Shown piece by piece: positions 2,230 through 29,358 of a stretch of DNA of 58,425 nt. A program made the position numbers and the translations under genes. Under the pieces are notes generated by a model. The model saw only the letters and a program-made list of their open reading frames with translations, ran no database searches and was not told the origin of the DNA. The stretch is from Beijerinckiaceae bacterium (GTDB lineage: Bacteria > Pseudomonadota > Alphaproteobacteria > Rhizobiales > Beijerinckiaceae). The stretch covers positions 1 to 58,425 of the forward strand of contig CANJVX010000016.1 in the NCBI GenBank assembly GCA_947478405.1, in the 5' to 3' direction. How positions within the stretch are numbered: position 1 is the stretch's first letter; each line of letters begins with the position of its first letter.

Positions 2230-3018
2230 TCAAGAACCAATTCGTAAAGGCGCGCGCATGTTGCGCAAGAGTGCCAGAACGGAAAGGGCTGTCATTTTGC
2301 TGGTCTTCGGATTTTCACTGGGCACATTTTCAATCGTCATCGAAAATGTCGCGCTCTCAGACTCAACTTCAACACGATGGACGTTGCGTGTCACGCCCGG
2401 ATCGGCCCAGATTTCCACCTGCGTGCGATCAAGGCCAAGCCCCGCAAAGGCCAAGCTTGCGGCAACATTGAGATTGGCTGGAAATTTTTGTGCCGCCTCG
2501 CGCGCTGTGCCCGCAAACAAGCGTAATGGTGCATCAATCGCACCAACAGACAGGCCAAGAGGTGGCTTGCGGGTGACCAGACGCACTGAATGAATCTCAC
2601 CTTGCGCGGCAGCCACCACCCCATCAAGGCCGAGCAAAGCCCCACTGGGCACAAGGATTTGAGCGCCATGCGCGCGCGCAAGATCAATCAGCTCGGGATG
2701 AGCCGCCAAGGCGGCAACGCTGAGCACAACAACACTCTTGCCCTTGGCCAAAAAGGGGCGTGCAAAAGACGTAAGCAATGCTGCTGGGGCCGCCTCAATC
2801 AGCAAATCGGCATGCGCCTCAAGCTCAGCCGGCGGAAGCACGGGGATGGAGAGAGCGAGATCGCTCAGGCGCTGGGCCGCCGCTGCATGATCTTGCGCAC
2901 TCACGGCCACAAGTTCAAACCCCTCAATGCCGCGTGCAAAGGCACGCGCCAGCGTGAGGCCGATGGTGCCCAGCCCGCCAATCGCCACACGAATCTTTTG
3001 ATCTTGCTTCATGAGCAC
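2230..3018 (-). CDS. aspartate dehydrogenase-like NAD(P)-dependent oxidoreductase
   Basis: About 260 residues in the aspartate dehydrogenase (NadX) family. An N-terminal Rossmann fold carries GGLGTIG about a dozen residues in. The hallmark SGALLGLDG lies in the middle, and the C-terminal catalytic domain shows FPANLNVAASLA and then ADPGVTRNVHRV, with the family's conserved Asn-x-His. Characterised members oxidise L-aspartate to iminoaspartate or catalyse the reverse amination. No nadA or nadC is nearby; instead it heads an operon with two SDRs and a TTT binding protein. That points to catabolism rather than NAD synthesis and leaves the substrate open. Translation may start at GTG 3018 or ATG 3012; neither has a strong ribosome-binding site. 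Confidence 0.85.
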   Translation of the reverse strand: MLMKQDQKIRVAIGGLGTIGLTLARAFARGIEGFELVAVSAQDHAAAAQRLSDLALSIPVLPPAELEAHADLLIEAAPAALLTSFARPFLAKGKSVVVLSVAALAAHPELIDLARAHGAQILVPSGALLGLDGVVAAAQGEIHSVRLVTRKPPLGLSVGAIDAPLRLFAGTAREAAQKFPANLNVAASLAFAGLGLDRTQVEIWADPGVTRNVHRVEVESESATFSMTIENVPSENPKTSKMTALSVLALLRNMRAPLRIGS

Positions 3019-3055
3019 ATGGTCGTGGCAGGAGCTCTGTCAGGCAAGGGGAAAC

Positions 3056-4678
3056 TCACGAGCGCAGGCCCGGAGCCTCCTGCCCCGTGCGCGCGACATA
3101 TTCCGTATAGCCACCACCATATTGATGGATGCCTTCAGGTGTGAGTTCGAGCACGCGGTTCGACAAAGCGGCCAGGAAGTGGCGATCATGCGAAACAAAC
3201 AGCATGGTGCCTTCATATTCCGCCAGCGCCTTGATGAGCATTTCCTTGGTCATCATATCGAGATGGTTGGTCGGCTCGTCGAGCACCAGAAAATTCGGCG
3301 GGTCATAGAGCATTTTCGCCATAACCAGACGCGCTTTTTCACCACCCGACAAAACGCGGCATTTCTTCTCGACATCATCGCCCGAAAATCCAAAGCATCC
3401 TGCCAGCGCGCGCAAAGACCCTTGGCCTGCCTGCGGGAAAGAATCTTCGAGCGATTCAAAAACGGTGCGATCACCATCGAGCAATTCCATCGCATGCTGC
3501 GCGAAATAGCCCATTTTCACACTGCCACCGATGGTCACAGACCCCGTATCAGGGTTGGCGGCCCCCGCGATGAGCTTCAGTAAGGTCGATTTGCCAGCGC
3601 CATTGACACCCATGATGCACCAGCGCTCTTTGCGGCGAATGGCAAAATCAAAGGCCTCGTAAATGCTGCGCGTGCCATAGGACTTCGAGACGCTTTTCAA
3701 CATGGCGACGTCATCCCCAGAGCGCGAGGCCACGGGAAAATCGAATTGAACGGCTTCACGACGCTTGGGTGGTTCGACGCGTTCGATCTTTTCAAGTTTT
3801 TTCACGCGGCTCTGCACTTGGGCCGCGTGGGAGGCGCGGGCCTTGAAACGCTCAATAAATTTGATTTCTTTGGCGAGCATAGCCTGCTGGCGCTCAAATT
3901 GTGCCTGCTGCTGTTGTGCATTTTGTGCGCGCTGCTGCTCGTAGAATTCATAATCACCTGAATAGGTGTTGAGCGAGCCGGCATCGATCTCGATGATTTT
4001 ATTGACGATGCGATTCATGAATTCGCGATCATGCGAGGTCATGAAGATAGCGCCTTCATAGCCCTTCAGAAAACTTTCCAGCCAGATCAAACTTTCGATA
4101 TCGAGATGGTTCGAGGGCTCGTCGAGCAACATGCAATCTGGGCGCATGAGCAGAATACGGCCCAAGGCGACGCGCATTTTCCAGCCGCCTGACAGATTGC
4201 CGACATCGCCATCCATCATCTCTTCGGTAAAACTCAAGCCTGCCAGAACTTCGCGCGCACGCCCTTCGAGCGCATAGCCATCCAGCTCTTCGAAGCGACC
4301 CTGAACCTCGCCATAGCGCTCGACCAATTGTTCGATTTCATCGAGGCGGTCGGGATCGGCCATAGCCGCTTCAAGTTCTTTCAGCTCGGTCGCCACTTCG
4401 CTCACCGGCCCAGCGCCTTCCATGACCTCCGCCACAGCACTGCGACCCGACATTTCGCCCACATCCTGACTGAAATAACCAATCGTCACACCGCGATCGA
4501 CGCCAACCTGTCCTTCATCGGGCAGATCCTCACCAGTGATCATGCGAAACAAGGTCGATTTGCCTGCGCCATTAGGCCCGACAAGGCCGATCTTCTCGCC
4601 GCGCTGAAGCGATGCGGAAGCCTCGATGAACAGAATTTGGTGCCCGTTCTGGCGGGAGATGTTTTCTAGGCGGATCAT
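3056..4678 (-). CDS. ABC-F family ATPase (ribosome-associated translation factor type)
   Basis: A 540-residue soluble protein with two ABC ATPase domains and no membrane segments, as in ABC-F proteins (EttA, Uup, YheS, YbiT). The first domain has Walker A GPNGAGKST (34-42), signature LSGGWKMR (162-169) and Walker B LLDEPSNHLD (184-193). A charged, Gln-rich linker at about 240-320 corresponds to the P-site tRNA interaction motif. The second domain has GVNGAGKST (357-365), LSGGEKARL and LVLDEPTNHLD. The ATG at 4678 is chosen because MIRLENISR is the normal start of the first domain. It probably acts on the ribosome rather than in transport, and nothing ties it to the surrounding catabolic genes. 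Confidence 0.93.
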   Translation of the reverse strand: MIRLENISRQNGHQILFIEASASLQRGEKIGLVGPNGAGKSTLFRMITGEDLPDEGQVGVDRGVTIGYFSQDVGEMSGRSAVAEVMEGAGPVSEVATELKELEAAMADPDRLDEIEQLVERYGEVQGRFEELDGYALEGRAREVLAGLSFTEEMMDGDVGNLSGGWKMRVALGRILLMRPDCMLLDEPSNHLDIESLIWLESFLKGYEGAIFMTSHDREFMNRIVNKIIEIDAGSLNTYSGDYEFYEQQRAQNAQQQQAQFERQQAMLAKEIKFIERFKARASHAAQVQSRVKKLEKIERVEPPKRREAVQFDFPVASRSGDDVAMLKSVSKSYGTRSIYEAFDFAIRRKERWCIMGVNGAGKSTLLKLIAGAANPDTGSVTIGGSVKMGYFAQHAMELLDGDRTVFESLEDSFPQAGQGSLRALAGCFGFSGDDVEKKCRVLSGGEKARLVMAKMLYDPPNFLVLDEPTNHLDMMTKEMLIKALAEYEGTMLFVSHDRHFLAALSNRVLELTPEGIHQYGGGYTEYVARTGQEAPGLRS

Positions 4679-4860
4679 GAGAAGGCGCAGCTCGCGTGCA
4701 ATCGGGAGAAGGCGCCTGATTAGCCGCTTAAGACCCAAAGGTCACGCGCTTTTCACCCGCCCCACCCGACAAGCCAGCTCGGTTGGACAGGATTGCCCGA
4801 AACAGGCTAAAAACGGGGCTAATATGTCGGAAAAACCGGCCCGTCGAAAGGGAGAATCTT

Positions 4861-5862
4861 TTGAACAAGCTACTTTACACCATGTGCGCGATGGCCGCAC
4901 TCACGGCCACACCCGCGCTGGCGCAGGATTCCTTCTACAAGGGCAAGAATTTTACCGTGGTGATAGGCTATTCGCCGGGCGGCGGCTATGACAGCTATGG
5001 TCGCCTGCTTGCCCGCCATATCGGCCGCCATATTGATGGCAAGCCCGAAGTCATCGTGCAAAATCTTCCCGGCGCGGGTTCGCTCAATGCTGTTCGCCAG
5101 CTTGATGCCACACAGCCCAAAGACGGTACCTATTTGACTGCCTTCAATCCTGCGCTCATGCTGGAATCACTTGTCGACCCCAATCGTATCAAGGTGAACT
5201 TCACCGAGGTCGCCTGGATCGGCAGCATGGCACCCGAAGTGCGCGTTTGCTACGCATGGCACCAGACGGGAATCAAAAATTGGGATGATCTTGTCGCGCG
5301 CAAGGAGACCGTGTTTGGCAGCACTGCCAAGGGCACTGCCAATTACATGAATGCCTCGACCTTGCGCAATGTGTTCAATATCAAGATCCGCCATGTTCTG
5401 GGCTTCCCCGGTTCTGCTGAACAGAAACTGGCGCTGGAGCGCGGTGAACTCGACGCCGATTGCGGCTCATGGAGCAGCCTTCCGGTCGAATGGATCGCCG
5501 ACAAGAAGATCTATCCGCTCGTCTCCTTCTCGCCCTCGCGCGAAAGCTCGATGCCGGCCGATATTCCCTATGCGGGGCAGTTTGTGAAAACACAGCAGCA
5601 GAAAGAGATACTCGAAATTTTTGCGGCCTCCAGCGAGGTGGGACGCCCCTTCATCATGTCCAAGGCTGTGCCGGAAGATCGCCTGAAGATCGTTCGCCGC
5701 GGCTTTGATGCCATGTTGAAAGACGAGGCGCTTTTGGCCGATGCGAAGAAATTCAATCTGCCAATCCAGCCGATGACCGGCGAAGACGCCGCCAAAATCA
5801 TTGCGCATGTCTATGCGGCAAAGCCTGAAAGCATTGCCAAAGTGCGTGAGATCACCGAGTGA
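4861..5862 (+). CDS. TTT-family (Bug/TctC) solute-binding protein
   Basis: A periplasmic binding protein of 333 residues. The start is taken as TTG 4861, preceded by GGGAGA at 4850-4855. That choice gives a short Sec signal peptide (MNKLLYTMC...TPALA) cut before QDSFYKG. The mature part has the family pattern SFYKGKNFTVVIGYSPGGGYDSYGR, split by positions 23-47, then VIVQNLPGAGS. The C-terminus has the usual DAMLKDEALLADAKKFNLPI. It binds a carboxylate-type ligand in the periplasm; which one is unknown. Its TGA overlaps the GTG of the next gene (GTGA, 5859-5862), so it is co-translated with the cyclodeaminase-like enzyme. No TctA/TctB genes are linked. Confidence 0.9.
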   Translation: MNKLLYTMCAMAALTATPALAQDSFYKGKNFTVVIGYSPGGGYDSYGRLLARHIGRHIDGKPEVIVQNLPGAGSLNAVRQLDATQPKDGTYLTAFNPALMLESLVDPNRIKVNFTEVAWIGSMAPEVRVCYAWHQTGIKNWDDLVARKETVFGSTAKGTANYMNASTLRNVFNIKIRHVLGFPGSAEQKLALERGELDADCGSWSSLPVEWIADKKIYPLVSFSPSRESSMPADIPYAGQFVKTQQQKEILEIFAASSEVGRPFIMSKAVPEDRLKIVRRGFDAMLKDEALLADAKKFNLPIQPMTGEDAAKIIAHVYAAKPESIAKVREITE

Positions 5863-10827: not shown

Positions 10828-11811
10828 TCAAGTATCCAGGGTCGAGGGCACGAAGAGCCGCTCGGGGGCGTATCTTTCTCTGATCAATCCCTGATCATGC
10901 GAATAGCGAATGAACTGCTCGAGATTGGCCCGATTGCGTTTGAAACCATTGACCCAAGGGTTGCCGAAAGCTGCCTCGGATTCTTCGTACAGATAGCGAA
11001 TCCAGGGCAGACGCGACCAATTTGGGTCAGTGTAATAATCGAGATTGATCTCATGGGCCTGATGAAACATACCCATCAACGCCTGTGGCAAAGCCGGATG
11101 TTGCGCAACCAGATCCTGATGCATGGCAACAATATGCATGATAGGCCACCATCCATATTTTTTAAAATAGCGCTGCTCTTCGGCCCGCGCATCCTTGAAC
11201 AGGCGGCGCGTGGGCACCTGCCCTTTCATGATGGACGGCGGCGGATGAGGCATGAACACGGCATCAATCTCGCCACACTCAAGCAAAAGACCGAGATCTG
11301 TACCCTTGGGCGCGCGATCAATCACAACACCGGGCTTGGGATCAAATTTCACTTTCTCATCGGTGGTGAGGAGCCATTTGATCTGCTCCCACTCAACACC
11401 ATATTCGAATTTCAGATCACCCTTGGCCAAGAGGGACAAAGTTGTCTGGAAAGACGACAAACCAACGCGGCGCCCCACCAGATCGCGCGGATGCTCAATA
11501 TCGCTATTTGCATGCACAAACATGCAGCTTTGTGAAAACAAGCGTCGCGGAAAGATCGGGATGCCAATCAAAGGAAGGCCACGATCAATGGCCATCAGAA
11601 ATGTCGACATAGAAAATTCGGATACATCGAACGCCTGATGATGGATCATCTGGCCATGGCGATCCGTCCCGTCGCGTAAATGATCGGACTGACCAACCTG
11701 CAAGGCCCGATAGGAGAAGCCCTCGGGCGCCTTCACCGTGCCGTCGAAAAAGGGGATGTGCCGATCATAGCGATCAAGCGCAATGGTGATCTCGACTGGA
11801 ATGGCCGACAT
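10828..11811 (-). CDS. 4,5-dihydroxyphthalate decarboxylase-like protein
   Basis: A soluble protein of 327 residues without a signal peptide. It resembles 4,5-dihydroxyphthalate decarboxylases of phthalate degradation, which are built on a periplasmic-binding-protein type II fold and are about this long. Recognisable stretches are DVSEFSMSTFLMA (about 62-74), IPIFPRRLFSQS (about 84-95), VGLSSFQTTLSL, ECGEIDAVFMPHPPPS and WPIMHIVAMHQD. The known reaction gives protocatechuate. Here it heads an operon with a TTT binding protein, a VOC dioxygenase-like protein and an alpha/beta hydrolase, an order that fits decarboxylation, ring cleavage and hydrolysis of an aromatic acid. A binding-protein role cannot be excluded because the fold is shared. 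It borders the AT-rich island. Confidence 0.82.
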   Translation of the reverse strand: MSAIPVEITIALDRYDRHIPFFDGTVKAPEGFSYRALQVGQSDHLRDGTDRHGQMIHHQAFDVSEFSMSTFLMAIDRGLPLIGIPIFPRRLFSQSCMFVHANSDIEHPRDLVGRRVGLSSFQTTLSLLAKGDLKFEYGVEWEQIKWLLTTDEKVKFDPKPGVVIDRAPKGTDLGLLLECGEIDAVFMPHPPPSIMKGQVPTRRLFKDARAEEQRYFKKYGWWPIMHIVAMHQDLVAQHPALPQALMGMFHQAHEINLDYYTDPNWSRLPWIRYLYEESEAAFGNPWVNGFKRNRANLEQFIRYSHDQGLIRERYAPERLFVPSTLDT

Positions 11812-12282
11812 GTTCCCAACCCCCGCATCTGCAGCTCAGCGCTGTCTGTTAGTTTGAAGGATCAACCAAAAAAGCCCACCAGGCAACCCGAACGGATGCG
11901 CTTAAAGATCAATGAAATTGACTTGGGAAGAAATAGAACGTCGTGCAGGATGGAGATGAAAAATTGTATCTAATTGAATTTACAGGATAATCCCGCGGCA
12001 CTGATCGGCCGCTGGCGGAAGTAAAAAGGCTACCGAAAACGAACATTAGTCTTGGACCACCAAGTCAAAGCCTTCAATTGCTCGAAAACTCCGCATCAAT
12101 CCGAACGACTCGTCAGGTGCAGACAAAAATTAAATCCACAAGTAATTTCAAGGAAATTAACAAAATAGCTGTAGTTTTTTTACAGACGGATTTTGGTATG
12201 AACCGTGTGTATCGAATTGATTCTATTTTTATGAGCGGAATGGCAGGGCTTGTCTGCATATTGGGGGCTTCGGGGCGTCGTC
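11812..12282. other. AT-rich intergenic stretch, left part of the low-GC island
   Basis: These 471 bases separate the decarboxylase-like gene from the YkgJ-like gene. Base composition turns AT-rich from about 11880. A long open frame without ATG runs from about 12000 to 12293 on the + strand, and a 15-codon frame (MKLTWEEIERRAGWR) begins at ATG 11918; neither is convincing as a gene. A short inverted repeat (ctgta at 12169-12173, tacag at 12181-12185) flanks a T run upstream of the YkgJ-like gene and may belong to its control region. No integrase, transposase end or direct repeat is visible. Confidence 0.5.
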
Positions 12283-12293
12283 ATGCTTTTTGA
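12198..12293 (+). CDS. possible 31-residue leader or small peptide overlapping the YkgJ-like gene start
   Basis: A short frame (MNRVYRIDSIF...GASGRRHAF) whose last 11 bases overlap the start of the YkgJ-like gene in another frame. The ATG at 12198 has only a weak GGA upstream (12188-12190). It contains a hydrophobic middle (MSGMAGLVCILGASG) and a basic end. It may be a translational leader, a small peptide, or chance: the frame is part of a longer open stretch without an upstream ATG. No family is recognised. Listed because its overlap with the first gene of a protein-modification-like cassette makes it worth testing. Confidence 0.2.
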   Translation: MNRVYRIDSIFMSGMAGLVCILGASGRRHAF

Positions 12294-12717
12294 TCATTGT
12301 GGAGTTTGCAAAAGATGTTGCGTCGTCGACCCTGGCTTCCCGCCGCTTGAGGTCTCACTTACAAGTGCTGAATCAAAGGTTATGAATTCGATTTGTATCG
12401 TCTCTGCCTGTCCGAATCTTGGCCCGACTGGATGCGAATTGGGTGAAACCAAGCCACTTTCGTGCTCGCTTTATCCGTTATCTTATAATCCGAAAAAGAA
12501 AAAATTCTCGATCGATAAAGAATGTCCGGTTGCTTCTGAATATATAAATCAGCTGAGCGAAGAAGGCACCGATGCCTCAATGCATTTGTCGACTATGAAA
12601 TCAAAAATACAAGAAATTGAAAATAGCGACATTAAGTTCCTGAAAGAAAATCATAGAGTGGATGTTTCCTACTTCGATTTACAAGAACTTCCTATCCGCT
12701 CGTCGATAATGGAATGA
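12283..12717 (+). CDS. YkgJ-family cysteine cluster (CxxCxxCC) protein
   Basis: A 144-residue protein with the cysteine pattern of the YkgJ/UPF0153 family. An N-terminal CGVCKRCC (residues 6-13) is followed by ACPNLGPTGC, then EXKP-like ETKPLSC and LYPLSY. This matches the family consensus of C-x2-C-x2-CC, a Cys pair and a Cys-Tyr-Pro segment. Such proteins are thought to bind zinc or an iron-sulfur cluster; their function is generally unknown. The C-terminal 60 residues are charged and carry no recognisable domain. Codon use and base composition are more AT-rich than in the flanking genes. The stop overlaps the ATG of the GNAT-like gene (ATGA, 12714-12717), so the two are coupled. ATG 12283 lacks a strong ribosome-binding site. 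Confidence 0.8.
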   Translation: MLFDHCGVCKRCCVVDPGFPPLEVSLTSAESKVMNSICIVSACPNLGPTGCELGETKPLSCSLYPLSYNPKKKKFSIDKECPVASEYINQLSEEGTDASMHLSTMKSKIQEIENSDIKFLKENHRVDVSYFDLQELPIRSSIME

Positions 12718-13640
12718 TTGTCATGTCTAGAAGCGTCCACAAGCTCGTAAAAAATAAATTTCAGGATCTGCCGAATTATACGGTTGGCTTCCAGTCTTGG
12801 AATGAAGACAATCTATTGGTTGAAAGCAATCACGAGGGCATTGTTTATTATACGACGCGTTGGGATGCGCTTTGTCCTTATATCAATGTCTCGGAAGAGA
12901 TGCTGTCTCAGGTGAAAAAACCCTTCGTTGTTTATGCCTTGCCACCAGATGGGCCTTTTGGCGTTCCCATTCGTGATTACTATGGAATGGCAGATGCGCA
13001 GTCCGAAGAGTTCTGGAGCGATGAGCGACGCAAACGTAAGTTTAGTTTGTACGACAAGCTATTTCGCAATTATCGTCTCGAGCAAACTGTCGTGCTGGGT
13101 AAGACTTTGTCACTTAGCGTAATGCAAACTTTAGGCGGGATGCATTTTGAGAAGTGCGAGATTGGGCCGCAAGAAATTGAGGGCTTCCTGGATTATGTGA
13201 AGGACCTGAATGTATTAATCCTTCAGGCATTCGACCAAGATGGGACGCTGATCTTCACCGATATTTCGATTTTGCTGCCGCATTACAATCAGGTTTATGG
13301 AAGTTTTTGCCAGTGGAATTCCGACTACAGGAATGACTCTCCCGGCATGTACGCTTGCCTTGCTGCCTGTAGATGGGCGGTTGAAAACGGGTTTAAGTAT
13401 TACAACATGGGCCCGATAAACGATTATGAATATAAATCTCTTTTTGTTACTGATTACGAGCCTATTTACTCGCTTGTCCTAACCGATACGGATCATCCGT
13501 TAACTCTCGACAAGATGTCGCCTCTTTATACGGATTTTAGAAAACGTGACTGGAATAGAGTTTATAGAAAAGTAGAACGTTTAAAATCCAACCCAACTGG
13601 CGAAAAAAACACGCGGTCGTTAAAAATTGTTACTGGGTAA
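12714..13640 (+). CDS. GNAT-fold protein resembling aminoacyl-tRNA-protein transferases (ATE1/FemAB-like)
   Basis: A 308-residue protein with no signal peptide or membrane segment. Residues about 165-255 read like the C-terminal GNAT domain of arginyl-tRNA-protein transferases and FemAB-like enzymes. VLILQAFDQDGTLIF and FTDISILLPHYN are followed by the DYRNDSPGMYACLAACR helix and GFKYYNMGPINDYEYKSLF, which is comparable to the ATE1 segment LKYYYLGYYIHSCPKMRYK. The first 160 residues are not recognised. Inferred role: transfer of an amino acid or acyl group to a protein or peptide; plain N-acetylation is also possible. It is coupled to the YkgJ-like gene by a 4-base overlap and ends in an 11-base tail-to-tail overlap with the SET gene. 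ATG 12723 is an alternative start. Confidence 0.72.
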   Translation: MIVMSRSVHKLVKNKFQDLPNYTVGFQSWNEDNLLVESNHEGIVYYTTRWDALCPYINVSEEMLSQVKKPFVVYALPPDGPFGVPIRDYYGMADAQSEEFWSDERRKRKFSLYDKLFRNYRLEQTVVLGKTLSLSVMQTLGGMHFEKCEIGPQEIEGFLDYVKDLNVLILQAFDQDGTLIFTDISILLPHYNQVYGSFCQWNSDYRNDSPGMYACLAACRWAVENGFKYYNMGPINDYEYKSLFVTDYEPIYSLVLTDTDHPLTLDKMSPLYTDFRKRDWNRVYRKVERLKSNPTGEKNTRSLKIVTG

Positions 13641-14070
13641 AATCGTGTTCCTCTCCGAATTCTTTGTCATAGTTGATTGTAAGCTCTTCACCGGCTTCAA
13701 TTTGGCGCAAAGCTCTTGCTGACCCGTCAGTCATAAGAGTTATGTTGGGCATTTTTGAGTGGTTTACATAAACCAAAAAACTCATCGTGTTTAAGCCCAT
13801 TGTCGAAACGAGCGCGCCATCATCATCACAATAACAAAAACGCTCAAGCTGAGCCATAATGGCGGGTGACAAATCACCCAAATCCTCTCGTGAAAGTCTT
13901 ATTTCTCTGTGCTTTTTCATCATTTGCATTGGGTTTATGCCGCTGGGAATTTCGCGGATCGCAAAAACTCCGATGCCATGAATCGGCGACGCCTTAAGCT
14001 GGCAATAAACTTCATTTTTAAGATGAGATAAGATTTTGGATTTTATTTGGGAGATTTTTTTTTCATCCAT
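13630..14070 (-). CDS. SET-domain protein, probable protein lysine methyltransferase
   Basis: A small SET-domain protein of 146 residues. ATG 14070 is preferred because AGGA lies 9 bases upstream; ATG 14079 is the alternative. The SET motifs appear in order. SPIHGIGVFAIREIPSG (28-44) is the SAM-binding first segment. YVNHSKMPN (101-109) is the NHS-x-x-PN motif of the pseudoknot. AGEELTINYD (126-135) carries the catalytic-region Tyr134. No cysteine-rich pre-SET or post-SET zinc module is present, but CYCDDD (79-84) sits before the NHS motif. Known SET enzymes methylate lysines using S-adenosylmethionine. It converges on the GNAT-like gene with an 11-base overlap and shares its AT-rich composition, suggesting joint acquisition. 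Confidence 0.82.
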   Translation of the reverse strand: MDEKKISQIKSKILSHLKNEVYCQLKASPIHGIGVFAIREIPSGINPMQMMKKHREIRLSREDLGDLSPAIMAQLERFCYCDDDGALVSTMGLNTMSFLVYVNHSKMPNITLMTDGSARALRQIEAGEELTINYDKEFGEEHDFTQ

Positions 14071-14079
14071 AATGAACAT

Positions 14080-14422: not shown

Positions 14423-14499
14423 TGGCGCGCCCGAAAGGATTCGAACCTCTGACCCTCAGATTCGTAGTCTGATGCTCTATCCAGCTGAGCTACGGGCGC
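14423..14499 (-). tRNA. tRNA-Arg (anticodon ACG)
   Basis: A 77-base cloverleaf reading GCGCCCG-TA-GCTC on the minus strand. The 7-base acceptor stem (14493-14499 with 14427-14433) is perfect, and the D-stem GCTCAGCTGGATAGAGC and the T-arm GGTTCGAATCC are normal. The anticodon stem TCAGA/TCTGA holds the loop CTACGAA, so the anticodon is ACG, which reads CGN arginine codons after A34 is converted to inosine. The discriminator base is G and the terminal CCA is encoded (tgg at 14423-14425). Its 3' end points at the AT-rich island. Confidence 0.96.
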
Positions 14500-17581: not shown

Positions 17582-18550
17582 TCAGCCAATCCGGCTGCTG
17601 AGCTTTTCGTAAAGCCCGTTTTTCGACGAAAAAATATAATCCATCTGCGCGACCGTCACGTGATCTGCGCCTTTAGAGATCAACCAATCGGCGAGATCGG
17701 CGACCTTCTTCTTGGGAACCACCAGCGTCAACGGGCCATCCTTGGCCAGTCCAAGCGGTAAGCGTACGCCAAAGATTTTTTGCGCTTCGGCCACAAGCTT
17801 GCTGCGATCGCCTGCAACAAGCGTGCGCACTTCGCGCGTCGTGCGCGCTTCTTCTTCAGCGGCAATACGGCCCAGAATGACGCGCGCAATATTTCGAGTG
17901 CGCTCATTCCAATCAGCTGTCAACGAGGCAACGAGATTGGCTTCTGAGCGCAGCATCACGCCATCGTCGAGAATTTTCAGCGCATTGGCGGCCAGCGTCG
18001 CGCCCGTCGTGGTGATATCGACAATCAGCTCTGCCTGTCCCGCCGCGGGCGCGCCTTCGGTCGCACCCAGGCTTTCAACGATGCGATAATCGGTGACGCC
18101 CTGTTCGGCAAAATACGACCGCGTAAGATTGATGTATTTGGTTGCCACGCGCATGCGCTCGCCGCGCCGCACGCGATAGGCGGCGGCGACATCTTCGAGA
18201 TCAGCCATATTGCGCACGTCGATCCAGGCCTGCGGCACAGCGACAACAACATTGGCGTGGCCAAAGCCCAGCGGCGTCAGCAGTTCTACCTTGGCATCGG
18301 CATCAGGAAGCGTCTCGCGCACGAGATCTTCACCGGTGACGCCCATATGCGCCGTACCGGCTGCCAGCTGGTTGACGATTTCTGAGGCCGACAGAAAAGC
18401 GATTTCCACCCCTTCAATACCAGCCAGCGTGCCGCGATAATCGCGCAAGCCACGACCGCGCACGACCTCAAGGCCAGCACGGGCAAAAAAGGCATTCGCA
18501 TTTTCCTGCAAGCGGCCTTTCGAGGGAACGGCAAGAACGAGATTGGACAT
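17582..18550 (-). CDS. hisG: ATP phosphoribosyltransferase catalytic subunit
   Basis: The first enzyme of histidine synthesis, joining ATP and PRPP. The 322-residue protein opens with [11 protein letters not shown] and has the PRPP-binding stretch [20 protein letters not shown] 18550 overlaps the last base of the hisZ stop (TGATG). The protein is much longer than the short HisG form of about 200-230 residues that normally works with HisZ. Its extra C-terminal part ([17 protein letters not shown], then GADHVTVAQ) looks like the regulatory domain of the long form. Both the extra domain and hisZ are therefore present. The gene is transcribed leftward as the second gene of a hisZ-hisG pair. Confidence 0.95.
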
Positions 18551-19692
18551 CAATTGCCTCCCTGCACGAGCAGTCGGTCACACCAGATTGCTGCGCCAAT
18601 GGCGGGAATTTCCACCGTCGCGCCCAGCGTTGTCATCAGACGGTCATAGCGTCCGCCGCCCACAACGGGGCGTGCATCGCCCTTGTCATCGAAAGCCTCA
18701 AACACAAAGCCGGTATAATAATCGAGATTGCGCGCAAAGCCTGCGGAGAAGGTCAGCCGCGAGGTTGCAACACCGCGCGCGGTGATGAATTTCAAGCGCG
18801 CATCAAAACCATCCAGCGCCACTGCGAGATCGAGCTTGGCATCTTTCGCCAGCTTGCGCATCGCAGCAGAGGCCTTTTCAGGATTGCCTTCAATTTTCAG
18901 AAAGCTTTCCAGAATAGCTCGCTTTTCAGGCGTCACGCCGCCACCCGCTTGCGCAGAGGCTTGCTCGAGATAGCGTTCCGCAATCTCATTGGCCGAACGG
19001 CCACCCACAGACGAAATGCCCGCAATCGATAAGAGATCTTGCACCAGCGCACGCGCGCCATTGCGATCTGCACCAGCCAGCGCGGCCAGCACACCGGAAT
19101 GATCAGCGGTCGAACCATTCTCTTCACGGTCGAAAATTTTGGTGAGATCCTGCCCCAAAGCGTGGCCGCGACGAATCCGACGCAGCCAGACCGACGGCAG
19201 ATCAAGTGCTTCAAGCAGTCTCGCGAAGAGACCTGCATCGCCGATGCGCACAGAGAGCATGCGGCCAAGCGCCTGTTCGGCGGCCTCTAACGCCAGCACC
19301 ATGACTTCGGCATCTGCCGCTTCGCGATCAGTACGGCCAAAACTTTCAAGACCGGCCTGATATTGTTCAGCCGCTGTGCCCGCACGGAAGCGGAAAACTG
19401 GACCCAGATAAGACGAACTGGCCGGCTTTCCGGCTTGCGCGGAGGCAAGGTATTCGCGGCAGACGGGAATCGTATATTCGGGGCGCAGGCAATATTCCGA
19501 ACCCGACGCATCGCTGGTCAGATAAATACGGCCGCGAATGTCCTCGCCTGCCAGATCGAGAAAGACCGCGGCAGGCTGCAGAATCGCAGGCTCGGTGCGG
19601 GCAAAACCGGCTGCAACGAGATGCGCCAGCACGGTCTCGCGCCGTCCTGCCGTCTCGGGCCCTGCGGCCATGCTTTGTCCGGTCGTGCTCAC
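18550..19692 (-). CDS. hisZ: ATP phosphoribosyltransferase regulatory subunit
   Basis: A 380-residue paralogue of histidyl-tRNA synthetase that lacks aminoacylation activity and partners HisG. It shows class II synthetase remnants: [14 protein letters not shown] (motif 2 region), YLGPVFRFR and the C-terminal [15 protein letters not shown]. The start is set at GTG 19692 because AGAGGG lies 8 bases upstream; ATG 19671 is a later possibility, and extension further upstream gives non-homologous sequence. Its stop overlaps the hisG start by one base. A strong terminator separates it from the cupin gene upstream, so it probably has its own promoter in the short space around 19700. Confidence 0.94.
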
Positions 19693-19704
19693 GGGTCTCA
19701 CCCT

Positions 19705-19743
19705 CTTAAAAAAGAAATCGCCCCGCTTGTAGCAAGCGGGGCG
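19705..19743 (-). terminator. intrinsic terminator downstream of the cupin gene
   Basis: A perfect 11-base-pair stem (19719-19729 with 19733-19743) with a 3-base loop. On the minus strand it is followed by ATTTCTTTTTTAA. It lies 23 bases after the cupin stop and just ahead of hisZ. Confidence 0.85.
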
Positions 19744-19765
19744 CATGCTTGCGAAGCCTATTAGA

Positions 19766-20302
19766 TCAATCGTGCTTAACGCGGGCGTCGACCCCTTCGC
19801 CCCGCAGAACGGGGTCGCCAAGGCCCAGCGGCTGCGCATCCACCAGCACAAAGGCCATGCGGCAGACATCCGGCCCCTTATTGCGCCAGGCGTGATAGGT
19901 GCCGCGCTGGATCATGACATCACCCGGGCCCATCGTGACCTTCTCGTCGCCATCGAGATCCATCTCCACCTCGCCCGACAGGACGATGATATAATCAATT
20001 GTCTCGGTACGGTGGCGGCGGGGCATATTGCCGGGCGGATATTCGGCAATCATGAAGCGGGTGCCTTTTTCCGGAGGATAAGTGCCGAGCTTGCGCTCGC
20101 CCATATCCTCGGCATCGAGCCCGACCGGCATGGGGGCCGGAGCCCCATCTGTGCACCAGAGCAAGGTCGAGAACTGGCCCGGCCGCGAGCTTTTGGTATT
20201 GCTCGCCACTTTGTCGACCAGGACGGTGGCGCGGCCGTCGGAATCATGGCCGGTGACGATACGGCGGATGGGTTGCGGCTGGCGCGCATTGGCGTCGGTC
20301 AT
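19766..20302 (-). CDS. cupin-domain protein
   Basis: A small protein of 178 residues. The ATG at 20302 is chosen because GAGGGAGGAG precedes it. The cupin core has ERKLGTYPPEKGTRF, then PRRHRTETIDYIIVLSGEVEM, split over about residues 98-117, and GPGDVMIQRGTYHAWRN. These supply the usual metal ligands (His in RHRTET and His in TYHAW). The beginning, RRIVTGHDSDGRATV, is shared with a group of alphaproteobacterial cupins sometimes annotated near aromatic or aldehyde metabolism. The substrate is unknown. It is monocistronic and ends at a strong terminator. Confidence 0.85.
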   Translation of the reverse strand: MTDANARQPQPIRRIVTGHDSDGRATVLVDKVASNTKSSRPGQFSTLLWCTDGAPAPMPVGLDAEDMGERKLGTYPPEKGTRFMIAEYPPGNMPRRHRTETIDYIIVLSGEVEMDLDGDEKVTMGPGDVMIQRGTYHAWRNKGPDVCRMAFVLVDAQPLGLGDPVLRGEGVDARVKHD

Positions 20303-29210: not shown

Positions 29211-29308
29211 GCGGGAGGTTGGCGGTGGACGCACCACTCGCCAACCGGGTCAGATCCGGAAGGAAGCAGCCCTAACGAGACCGGGCGGGTCTCTGTCCAG
29301 CCTCCCAC
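29211..29308 (+). ncRNA. ffs: signal recognition particle 4.5S RNA
   Basis: The conserved apical loop region reads GGTCAGATCCGGAAGGAAGC and continues AGCCCTAACGAGA, the invariant Ffh-binding site. The outer helix pairs GGGAGG (29213-29218) with CCTCCC (29301-29306). The position just upstream of dnaX is conserved in many alphaproteobacteria. The RNA pairs with Ffh to target membrane proteins to the translocon. Ends are approximate. Confidence 0.93.
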
Positions 29309-29358
29309 TTTCAAGCCTGCGCCGATCAGGCGAGGCTTTCCGCGAACTGGCTCCCGAA

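Follow-up and report, generated by a model that had tools for sequence, protein, structure and literature searches.

The three-gene block

This work deals with three adjacent genes, hereafter the trio, that lie in a stretch of 58,425 nucleotides from Beijerinckiaceae bacterium (GenBank assembly GCA_947478405.1, contig CANJVX010000016.1, positions 1 to 58,425 of the forward strand). The whole of that stretch is referred to as the window. The genes encode a cysteine-cluster protein, a predicted transferase and a SET-domain protein, and they are arranged as follows:

12283 to 12717, plus strand: YkgJ-like (CxxCxxCC) cysteine-cluster protein, 144 amino acids from the ATG at 12283 (open reading frame list)
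12714 to 13640, plus strand: tandem-GNAT transferase, 308 amino acids, coupled to the cysteine gene by ATGA (open reading frame list and fold model; GNAT, Gcn5-related N-acetyltransferase)
13630 to 14079, minus strand: small SET-domain methyltransferase, 149 amino acids, convergent to the transferase gene (Pfam SET and motifs)

For the cysteine gene, the list of open reading frames gives a longer frame that starts from a TTG at 12250. The stop codon of this gene and the start codon of the transferase gene share the ATGA at 12714 to 12717, and the transferase and SET genes overlap tail to tail by 11 bases, at 13630 to 13640. Both junctions had been described in an earlier note made from the letters of the window, and both are present. 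The same note had pointed to an AT-rich block of three genes, which agrees with the measured composition: all three reading frames were found, and the block has a G+C content of 42.4% against 57.5% in the remaining window. Among sliding stretches of equal length, this lies 4.8 standard deviations below the average; the lowest such stretch away from the block has 53.0% G+C. The third-position G+C of the three genes is 0.41, 0.48 and 0.43, compared with 0.58 to 0.66 in six neighbouring genes.

Recurrence and linkage of the trio

The trio is a recurrent three-gene module built from known folds. A four-row alignment of the transferase, scanned once against 84,980 species genomes, gave 77 loci, each in a different assembly by accession prefix; this figure is a lower bound, since the scan uses short exact peptide patterns and misses far relatives. 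In a sample of 398 genomes of the phylum, only the window's own genome was found, and in an order-level sample seven of the nine matches were weak (E 5e-5 to 8e-4) and were not counted as trio transferases. In the locus comparisons, where the starts of reading frames were called mechanically, the cysteine gene lies directly upstream of the transferase gene in 76 of the 77 loci (a contig end cuts into two of these), a SET gene lies nearby in 74, and the full trio is present in 73. The earlier note had named a lack of recurrence as grounds for abandoning its proposal, and the trio was found to recur. In three loci (L023, L039 and L065) the missing partner falls beyond the contig end on the relevant side, and only L078 is without a SET gene in the available stretch, also when searched with a deeper profile.

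The cysteine and transferase genes form a same-strand pair that overlaps by 4 bases in 41 of 76 loci and whose members are no more than 100 bases apart in 75. The SET gene is more variable in place: it is convergent in 65 loci, upstream and divergent in five, and downstream on the same strand in four. Its retention despite a changed place and strand argues for function and not for frozen synteny. The arrangement was seen in records titled Alpha-, Beta- and Gammaproteobacteria, a recurrence that is beyond chance. The transferase was detected in three of 101 near genomes, and the cysteine family, searched by profile, in those same three only; the SET family scores above 200 bits in the same three, where other SET genes reach at most 60 bits. 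The distances between the proteins also correlate (Spearman 0.63, 0.56 and 0.38; Mantel p 0.001 each) in a mirror-distance test of 71 of the 77 loci, with incomplete sets dropped, that ignores shared descent.

According to the record titles of 78 rows (the 77 loci and the window), the carriers comprise 12 Alphaproteobacteria (Beijerinckiaceae/Hyphomicrobiales), 56 Betaproteobacteria, seven with a gamma label and three others. Lakes or ponds are named in several titles, and the remaining carriers are presumably of freshwater origin as well. One carrier, Polynucleobacter bastaniensis AP-Basta-1000A-D1 (L088), has a record title that names a strain. A quick transferase tree requires a single change for the alpha labels and a single one for the gamma labels, so there is no clear sign of recent jumps from one class to another; within a genus the distribution is patchy, which suggests either transfer inside classes or frequent loss. 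The cassette is poorer in G+C than the flanking DNA in 73 of the 77 loci, with a mean difference of 4 points. Three records titled as metagenome-assembled genomes carry the trio under the names Rickettsia typhi, Bordetella parapertussis and Klebsiella pneumoniae (L067, L069 and L085). These group with Burkholderiales or with the gamma-labelled clade on the tree, and seem to bear the wrong species names.

In 18 of 75 upstream regions, TTTCTTGAC stands 123 to 193 bases before the start of the cysteine gene (L026, L031, L033, L036, L040-L042, L046, L048-L050, L054, L059, L065, L067-L069 and L075), compared with 0.1 of 75 in shuffles, and in 17 of these 18 it is followed by an AATAATT box. All 18 loci belong to one 20-row clade of the transferase tree. 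The spacer after TTTCTTGAC holds GTCAA in eight of the 18, which completes a TTGAC-N-GTCAA dyad, GACAA in nine, and neither in one. The TTTCTTGAC...AATAATT block resembles a sigma-70 promoter, to which part of the clade may add an operator. No RNA element was found in the leader, and Rfam at gathering scores gives only tRNA and signal recognition particle (SRP) RNA in the window; the latter is a small bacterial SRP RNA (RF00169) at 29213 to 29309.

No fourth partner emerged from the 77 loci, where the widest flanking families occur in 24, 23 and 13 loci, a distribution that looks like clade synteny. The two commonest of them are, by eye, genes of the resistance-nodulation-division efflux type. 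In one locus (L005, genome G032), a long glycine/aspartate-rich repeat protein, RTX-like by eye, is encoded at 2851-5046, just upstream of the trio. In the window, the block is flanked by these features:

10831 to 11811, left of the block: open reading frame without a Pfam match
left of the block: TctC receptor gene
right of the block: histidine-kinase-type gene, with tRNA-Arg(acg)
14423 to 14499, minus strand: tRNA-Arg(acg), 3' end towards the cassette and not part of the module (ARAGORN and Rfam)

A TctC-like family was recognised by eye in eight of the 77 loci. Further along the window, at 17582-19869, hisG adjoins a histidyl-tRNA-synthetase-like gene, perhaps HisZ. The tRNA-Arg(acg) beside the trio is a possible old insertion site. 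Any tRNA gene near the trio was seen in three of 44 scanned loci: L022 has a tRNA-Arg(acg) at 4880-4956, with its 3' end towards the trio, L021 has a tRNA-Ser at 4027-4118, about 900 bases away and also with its 3' end towards the trio, and in L074 a tRNA-Gly turns its 5' end to the trio, with a tRNA-Leu lying beyond it. A repeat of the 3' part of the tRNA was sought in the window by exact words of 14, 16 or 18 and was not found, and the tRNA genes of the window, L021 and L022 give a hint, and no more, of tRNA-linked insertion. As for mobility, the transferase gave no match in phages, plasmids and viral contigs, nor did the cysteine protein in plasmids. PHROGs gave only two weak matches, both for the SET protein (E 0.02-0.03), and no PADLOC model of anti-phage defence matched any of the three proteins at E<=0.1.

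That chance or a mobile element holds the three genes together as passive neighbours with no shared function is very improbable: the low G+C and the tRNA gene nearby suggest a foreign origin in the window, but the linkage survives rearrangement of the SET gene in place and strand over three classes, and the searches of phages, plasmids and viral contigs for the transferase and of plasmids for the cysteine protein found no match.

Families of the three proteins

The domain labels given to the proteins in the earlier note held to different degrees: the SET label is above the Pfam cut-off, whereas the CxxCxxCC label and the ATE_C and Acetyltransf_6 labels are below it in the window proteins, yet are matched across homologues at E<=1. 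For the transferase, the best Pfam match is ATE_C (E 2.3e-4, 22.2 bits, cut-off 25), followed by Acetyltransf_6 (E 4.9e-4, 20.7 bits, cut-off 22); among the aligned homologues, ATE_C is matched by 28 of 29 (best 4.7e-6) and Acetyltransf_6 by all 29. An AlphaFold2 model built from 29 sequences reached a mean predicted local distance difference (pLDDT) of 88 and a predicted template modelling score (pTM) of 0.84. Foldseek against the PDB, taken as the best 50 of 68 matches at E<=0.001, gave at ranks 1-34 only chains of MprF, A-PGS/L-PGS, FemX, Sbb17/Sba18 and ATE1 (E 2e-7 to 9e-5), with 5vrv, one of the A-PGS/L-PGS chains, being putative only. The model thus indicates that the protein is a two-lobed GNAT fold nearest to aminoacyl-tRNA-dependent enzymes, and the refuting outcome named in the earlier note, a structure prediction outside the GNAT fold, did not arise. 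Passages of PMC2922099 describe the Fem, MprF/VlmA-like and arginyl/leucyl transferases as one GNAT family that evolved to work with tRNA.

A further link to the canonical aminoacyl-tRNA-protein transferases (ATE) is a short stretch of their C-lobe, S[LP]Gx[YF], which is present in 29 of 29 trio transferases and in 22 of 30 canonical ATEs taken from the window genome and its relatives. A profile comparison with those 30 proteins aligned 50 columns around S-P/L-G-x-Y...LG...YK with E values of 0.003-0.005. On the fold and the SPGxY stretch, the transferase is likely to be aminoacyl-tRNA-dependent. An ordinary ATE_C gene was found in 35 of 41 genomes searched, the window's included, where a canonical ATE gene lies elsewhere (ATE_C 131 bits, 249-residue frame); the trio enzyme is therefore an extra.

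Compared with known families, the trio transferase resembles ATE/Bpt (PF04376 and PF04377) in its GNAT C-lobe, in the SxGxY...LG...YK stretch and in its fold matches to ATE1. It differs in having no ATE_N among the listed matches, in lacking the CxxC in all 29 sequences where the 30 canonical ATEs all have it, in being about 50 residues longer, and in an ATE_C score below the curated cut-off. With the synthase domain of MprF/A-PGS, FemX and Sbb17/Sba18 it has the two-lobed GNAT fold in common (Foldseek ranks 1-25), at an identity of 10-16% and a TM-score of at most 0.47. Its 308 residues are too few for the membrane part of MprF, whose chains have about 800.

The cysteine protein of the window matches Pfam PF03692 below the cut-off (E 0.028, 15.6 bits, cut-off 23), and 40 of 40 homologues match it weakly at E<=1 (best 4.9e-4). 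Nine cysteines, including those of the CxxCxxCC motif, are conserved in 40 of 40. The AlphaFold2 model reached a pLDDT of 83, with no fold match in the PDB at E<=0.001 (best E 3.3). In passages of PMC8598068, the related CX4CX3CC motif of FliB, which is PF03692-like, goes with a [4Fe-4S] cluster; by analogy, the trio protein may bind an Fe-S cluster or zinc. It shares with FliB and the YkgJ-type PF03692 proteins the CxxCxxCC motif plus further cysteines, but is a distinct family, with nine invariant cysteines and linkage to a SET gene and a tRNA-type transferase.

The SET protein exceeds the Pfam cut-off (E 6.5e-8, 33.4 bits, cut-off 22.4), and the domain is matched by 38 of 38 homologues. GxGV and NHS occur in every one of these 38, and 30 of them have the GEELxxDY-type motif, written as G[EDQ]ELxx[DNS]Y. 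The first hits of the SET profile are the KMT2C/2D lysine methyltransferases (KMT2C E 7.6e-8), and BurB, for which passages of PMC12542666 describe a SET-fold methionine S-methyltransferase, follows at E 3.8e-4 over profile positions 72-138, as one of 18 distinct PDB sequences under 5e-4. The GxG, NHS and GEELxxDY-type motifs are shared with both KMT2-type SET domains and BurB. Unlike these, the trio protein is a short stand-alone protein (median 144 residues) without the post-SET cysteines (NHSC in 0 of 38, NHSK in 36 of 38). From these motifs and matches, its substrate may be a protein lysine or a small molecule, and both readings stand.

Proposed function and competing explanations

From the fold and the linkage, an aminoacyl-tRNA-dependent modification cassette is proposed, and we infer its acceptor and the joint action of its parts. 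The transferase would take an amino acid from an aminoacyl-tRNA and attach it to an acceptor, and the SET protein would methylate that acceptor or the added residue with S-adenosylmethionine. The cysteine protein would hold an Fe-S cluster or zinc and partner the transferase, as a scaffold or as a redox/oxygen sensor, a role suggested by the coupling or adjacency of the two genes. The acceptor would be encoded or made outside the cassette. We see about an even chance that the trio is such a self-contained, patchily distributed three-part cassette, which aminoacylates and methylates an acceptor encoded or made elsewhere. Protein tagging or methylation had been put forward in the earlier note. 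Tagging and methylation stand as the natural reading, given the recurrence of the trio and a GNAT-like model near aminoacyl-tRNA-dependent transferases, but the acceptor need not be a protein: the enzymes that lead the fold matches modify lipids, peptidoglycan precursors, small molecules or proteins. We lean only slightly towards a protein acceptor over a small molecule or lipid.

Several results weigh against the proposed cassette. The Foldseek TM-scores at ranks 1-34 are modest, 0.3-0.47, and therefore the fold class is clear and the closest family is not. The tandem GNAT 2wpw of clavulanic acid biosynthesis appears at ranks 35, 38 and 40, and VipF with acetyl-coenzyme A (CoA) at rank 46, amid further ATE1 and MprF chains. 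Against canonical ATE, hhalign gives a probability of 7-11%, a search of PDB sequences with the transferase profile gave nothing under E 0.2, and a longer, self-written pattern for the ATE lobe fits six of 29 trio transferases and none of 30 canonical ATEs. The near-absence of the CoA-loop pattern [RQ]xxGx[GA], seen in two of 29 trio transferases, counts for little as evidence, since nine of 30 canonical ATEs show the pattern too. The correlated protein distances may stem from shared descent alone. No aminoacyl-tRNA synthetase paralogue was noticed by the trio, with no profile search made for one. Finally, the 15 most widespread families of frames of 18-110 residues within 1 kb, none of them in more than 18 of the 77 loci, showed no precursor peptide. 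This survey covered 2,546 such frames in the 77 loci, and by eye the 15 families look like clade-specific neighbours or shadow frames of the efflux gene. A cluster for ribosomally synthesised and post-translationally modified peptides was considered and set aside, with no precursor recognised beside the enzymes.

The confidences given to the competing explanations overlap, and these explanations are not mutually exclusive. The one that survives best, although clearly less probable than the proposed cassette as a whole, is a small-molecule or lipid pathway, in which an aminoacyl conjugate of a metabolite or lipid would be made and the SET protein would S- or N-methylate an amino acid, like BurB's methionine methylation towards dimethylsulfoniopropionate. 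The best fold matches speak for it, namely MprF/A-PGS (lipid), FemX (peptidoglycan precursor) and Sbb17/Sba18 (complexed with streptothrisamine), as do the presence of BurB among the SET matches under 5e-4 and the failure to find a precursor peptide or a recurrent neighbouring protein substrate in the 77 loci. Nevertheless, KMT2C/2D outscore BurB with the SET profile (7.6e-8 against 3.8e-4), and genes for biosynthesis, export or resistance recur in 24 of the 77 loci at most.

An acylation-methylation pathway without tRNA, with the middle protein as a conventional CoA-dependent tandem GNAT acyltransferase, is unlikely. The appearance of 2wpw and VipF among the fold matches and the Acetyltransf_6 matches in 29 of 29 are consistent with such an enzyme, but the 34 better-ranked chains all come from aminoacyl-tRNA-dependent families and the CoA-loop pattern is found in two of 29 only.

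Equally doubtful is the idea, raised in the earlier note, of a split ATE, in which the YkgJ-like protein would replace the N-terminal Fe-S domain and sense oxygen for a tRNA-dependent protein tagger. It is attractive as a lead. The cysteine and transferase genes are coupled; all 29 trio transferases and all 30 canonical ATEs contain CPY[LIV]; the CxxC of all 30 canonical ATEs, lacking in all 29 trio transferases, is present in the partner protein; and passages of PMC9884297 describe an oxygen-sensitive N-terminal Fe-S cluster in eukaryotic ATE1. The claim that the N-terminal cysteine domain had been split off found no profile support, however, for the YkgJ profile set against the N-terminal part of the 30 canonical ATEs matches over 10 columns at the CxxC only, at E 0.1. 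The CPY stretch scores 13.3, where at least 10 of 40 column-shuffled controls score 13.6-22.2, and the motifs were chosen after looking. Moreover, the YkgJ-like protein has nine conserved cysteines of its own, and a canonical ATE gene is present in the same genome.

Another explanation, slightly less probable still, is that the cassette has a role in anoxygenic phototrophy, such as the modification of a component of the photosynthetic apparatus. PF00124 (reaction-centre L/M) was tested on a hunch in the genomes of 62 of the 77 loci plus the window's own, and was found in 46 of 63 (7/9 + 39/54). The figures for comparison are 25 of 98 trio-free relatives of the window genome, and 47 of 298 further genomes from the family to which G813 (titled Comamonadaceae) belongs, the trio status of these 298 being unchecked. 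The excess is strong in non-alpha trio genomes, from several families (38/51 vs 47/298, Fisher p 1e-16), and moderate in the alphas (8/12 vs 25/98, p 0.006). On the other hand, the samples are unmatched for family, habitat and descent, and sunlit lakes may explain the whole excess. The domain is missing from 17 of the 63 trio genomes, including the window's (95% complete) and G387 (100%), and the excess is not significant in the window's genus (2/3 vs 12/~48, p ~0.18). A PpsR-type TGTN12ACA is not enriched upstream (8 of 75 vs 8.3 expected). A link with rhodopsin was also considered and rejected, as only three of 50 trio genomes carry rhodopsin.

The searches made of open-licence PubMed Central (PMC) text gave no description of the trio, in line with the earlier note, which knew of no such system, and the terms "SET domain" and "cysteine cluster" do not occur in the passages of PMC2922099 referred to above. 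It is possible, though we would not expect it, that the trio represents a new kind of system, in which an Fe-S protein assists a tRNA-dependent tagger that is followed by a dedicated SET lysine- or S-methylation, carried as a three-gene cassette by bacteria of fresh water and preferentially by anoxygenic phototrophs.

To our knowledge, few substrates are known for bacterial SET proteins outside pathogens. tRNA-dependent transferases, for their part, have repeatedly been found with unexpected acceptors. The reaction-centre association is the most useful unexplained observation, and the near-obligate link between a SET protein, a transferase and a cysteine partner, seen in 73 of 77 loci, offers a concrete handle. 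With one carrier titled as a strain (L088), gene removal followed by mass spectrometry therefore looks possible.

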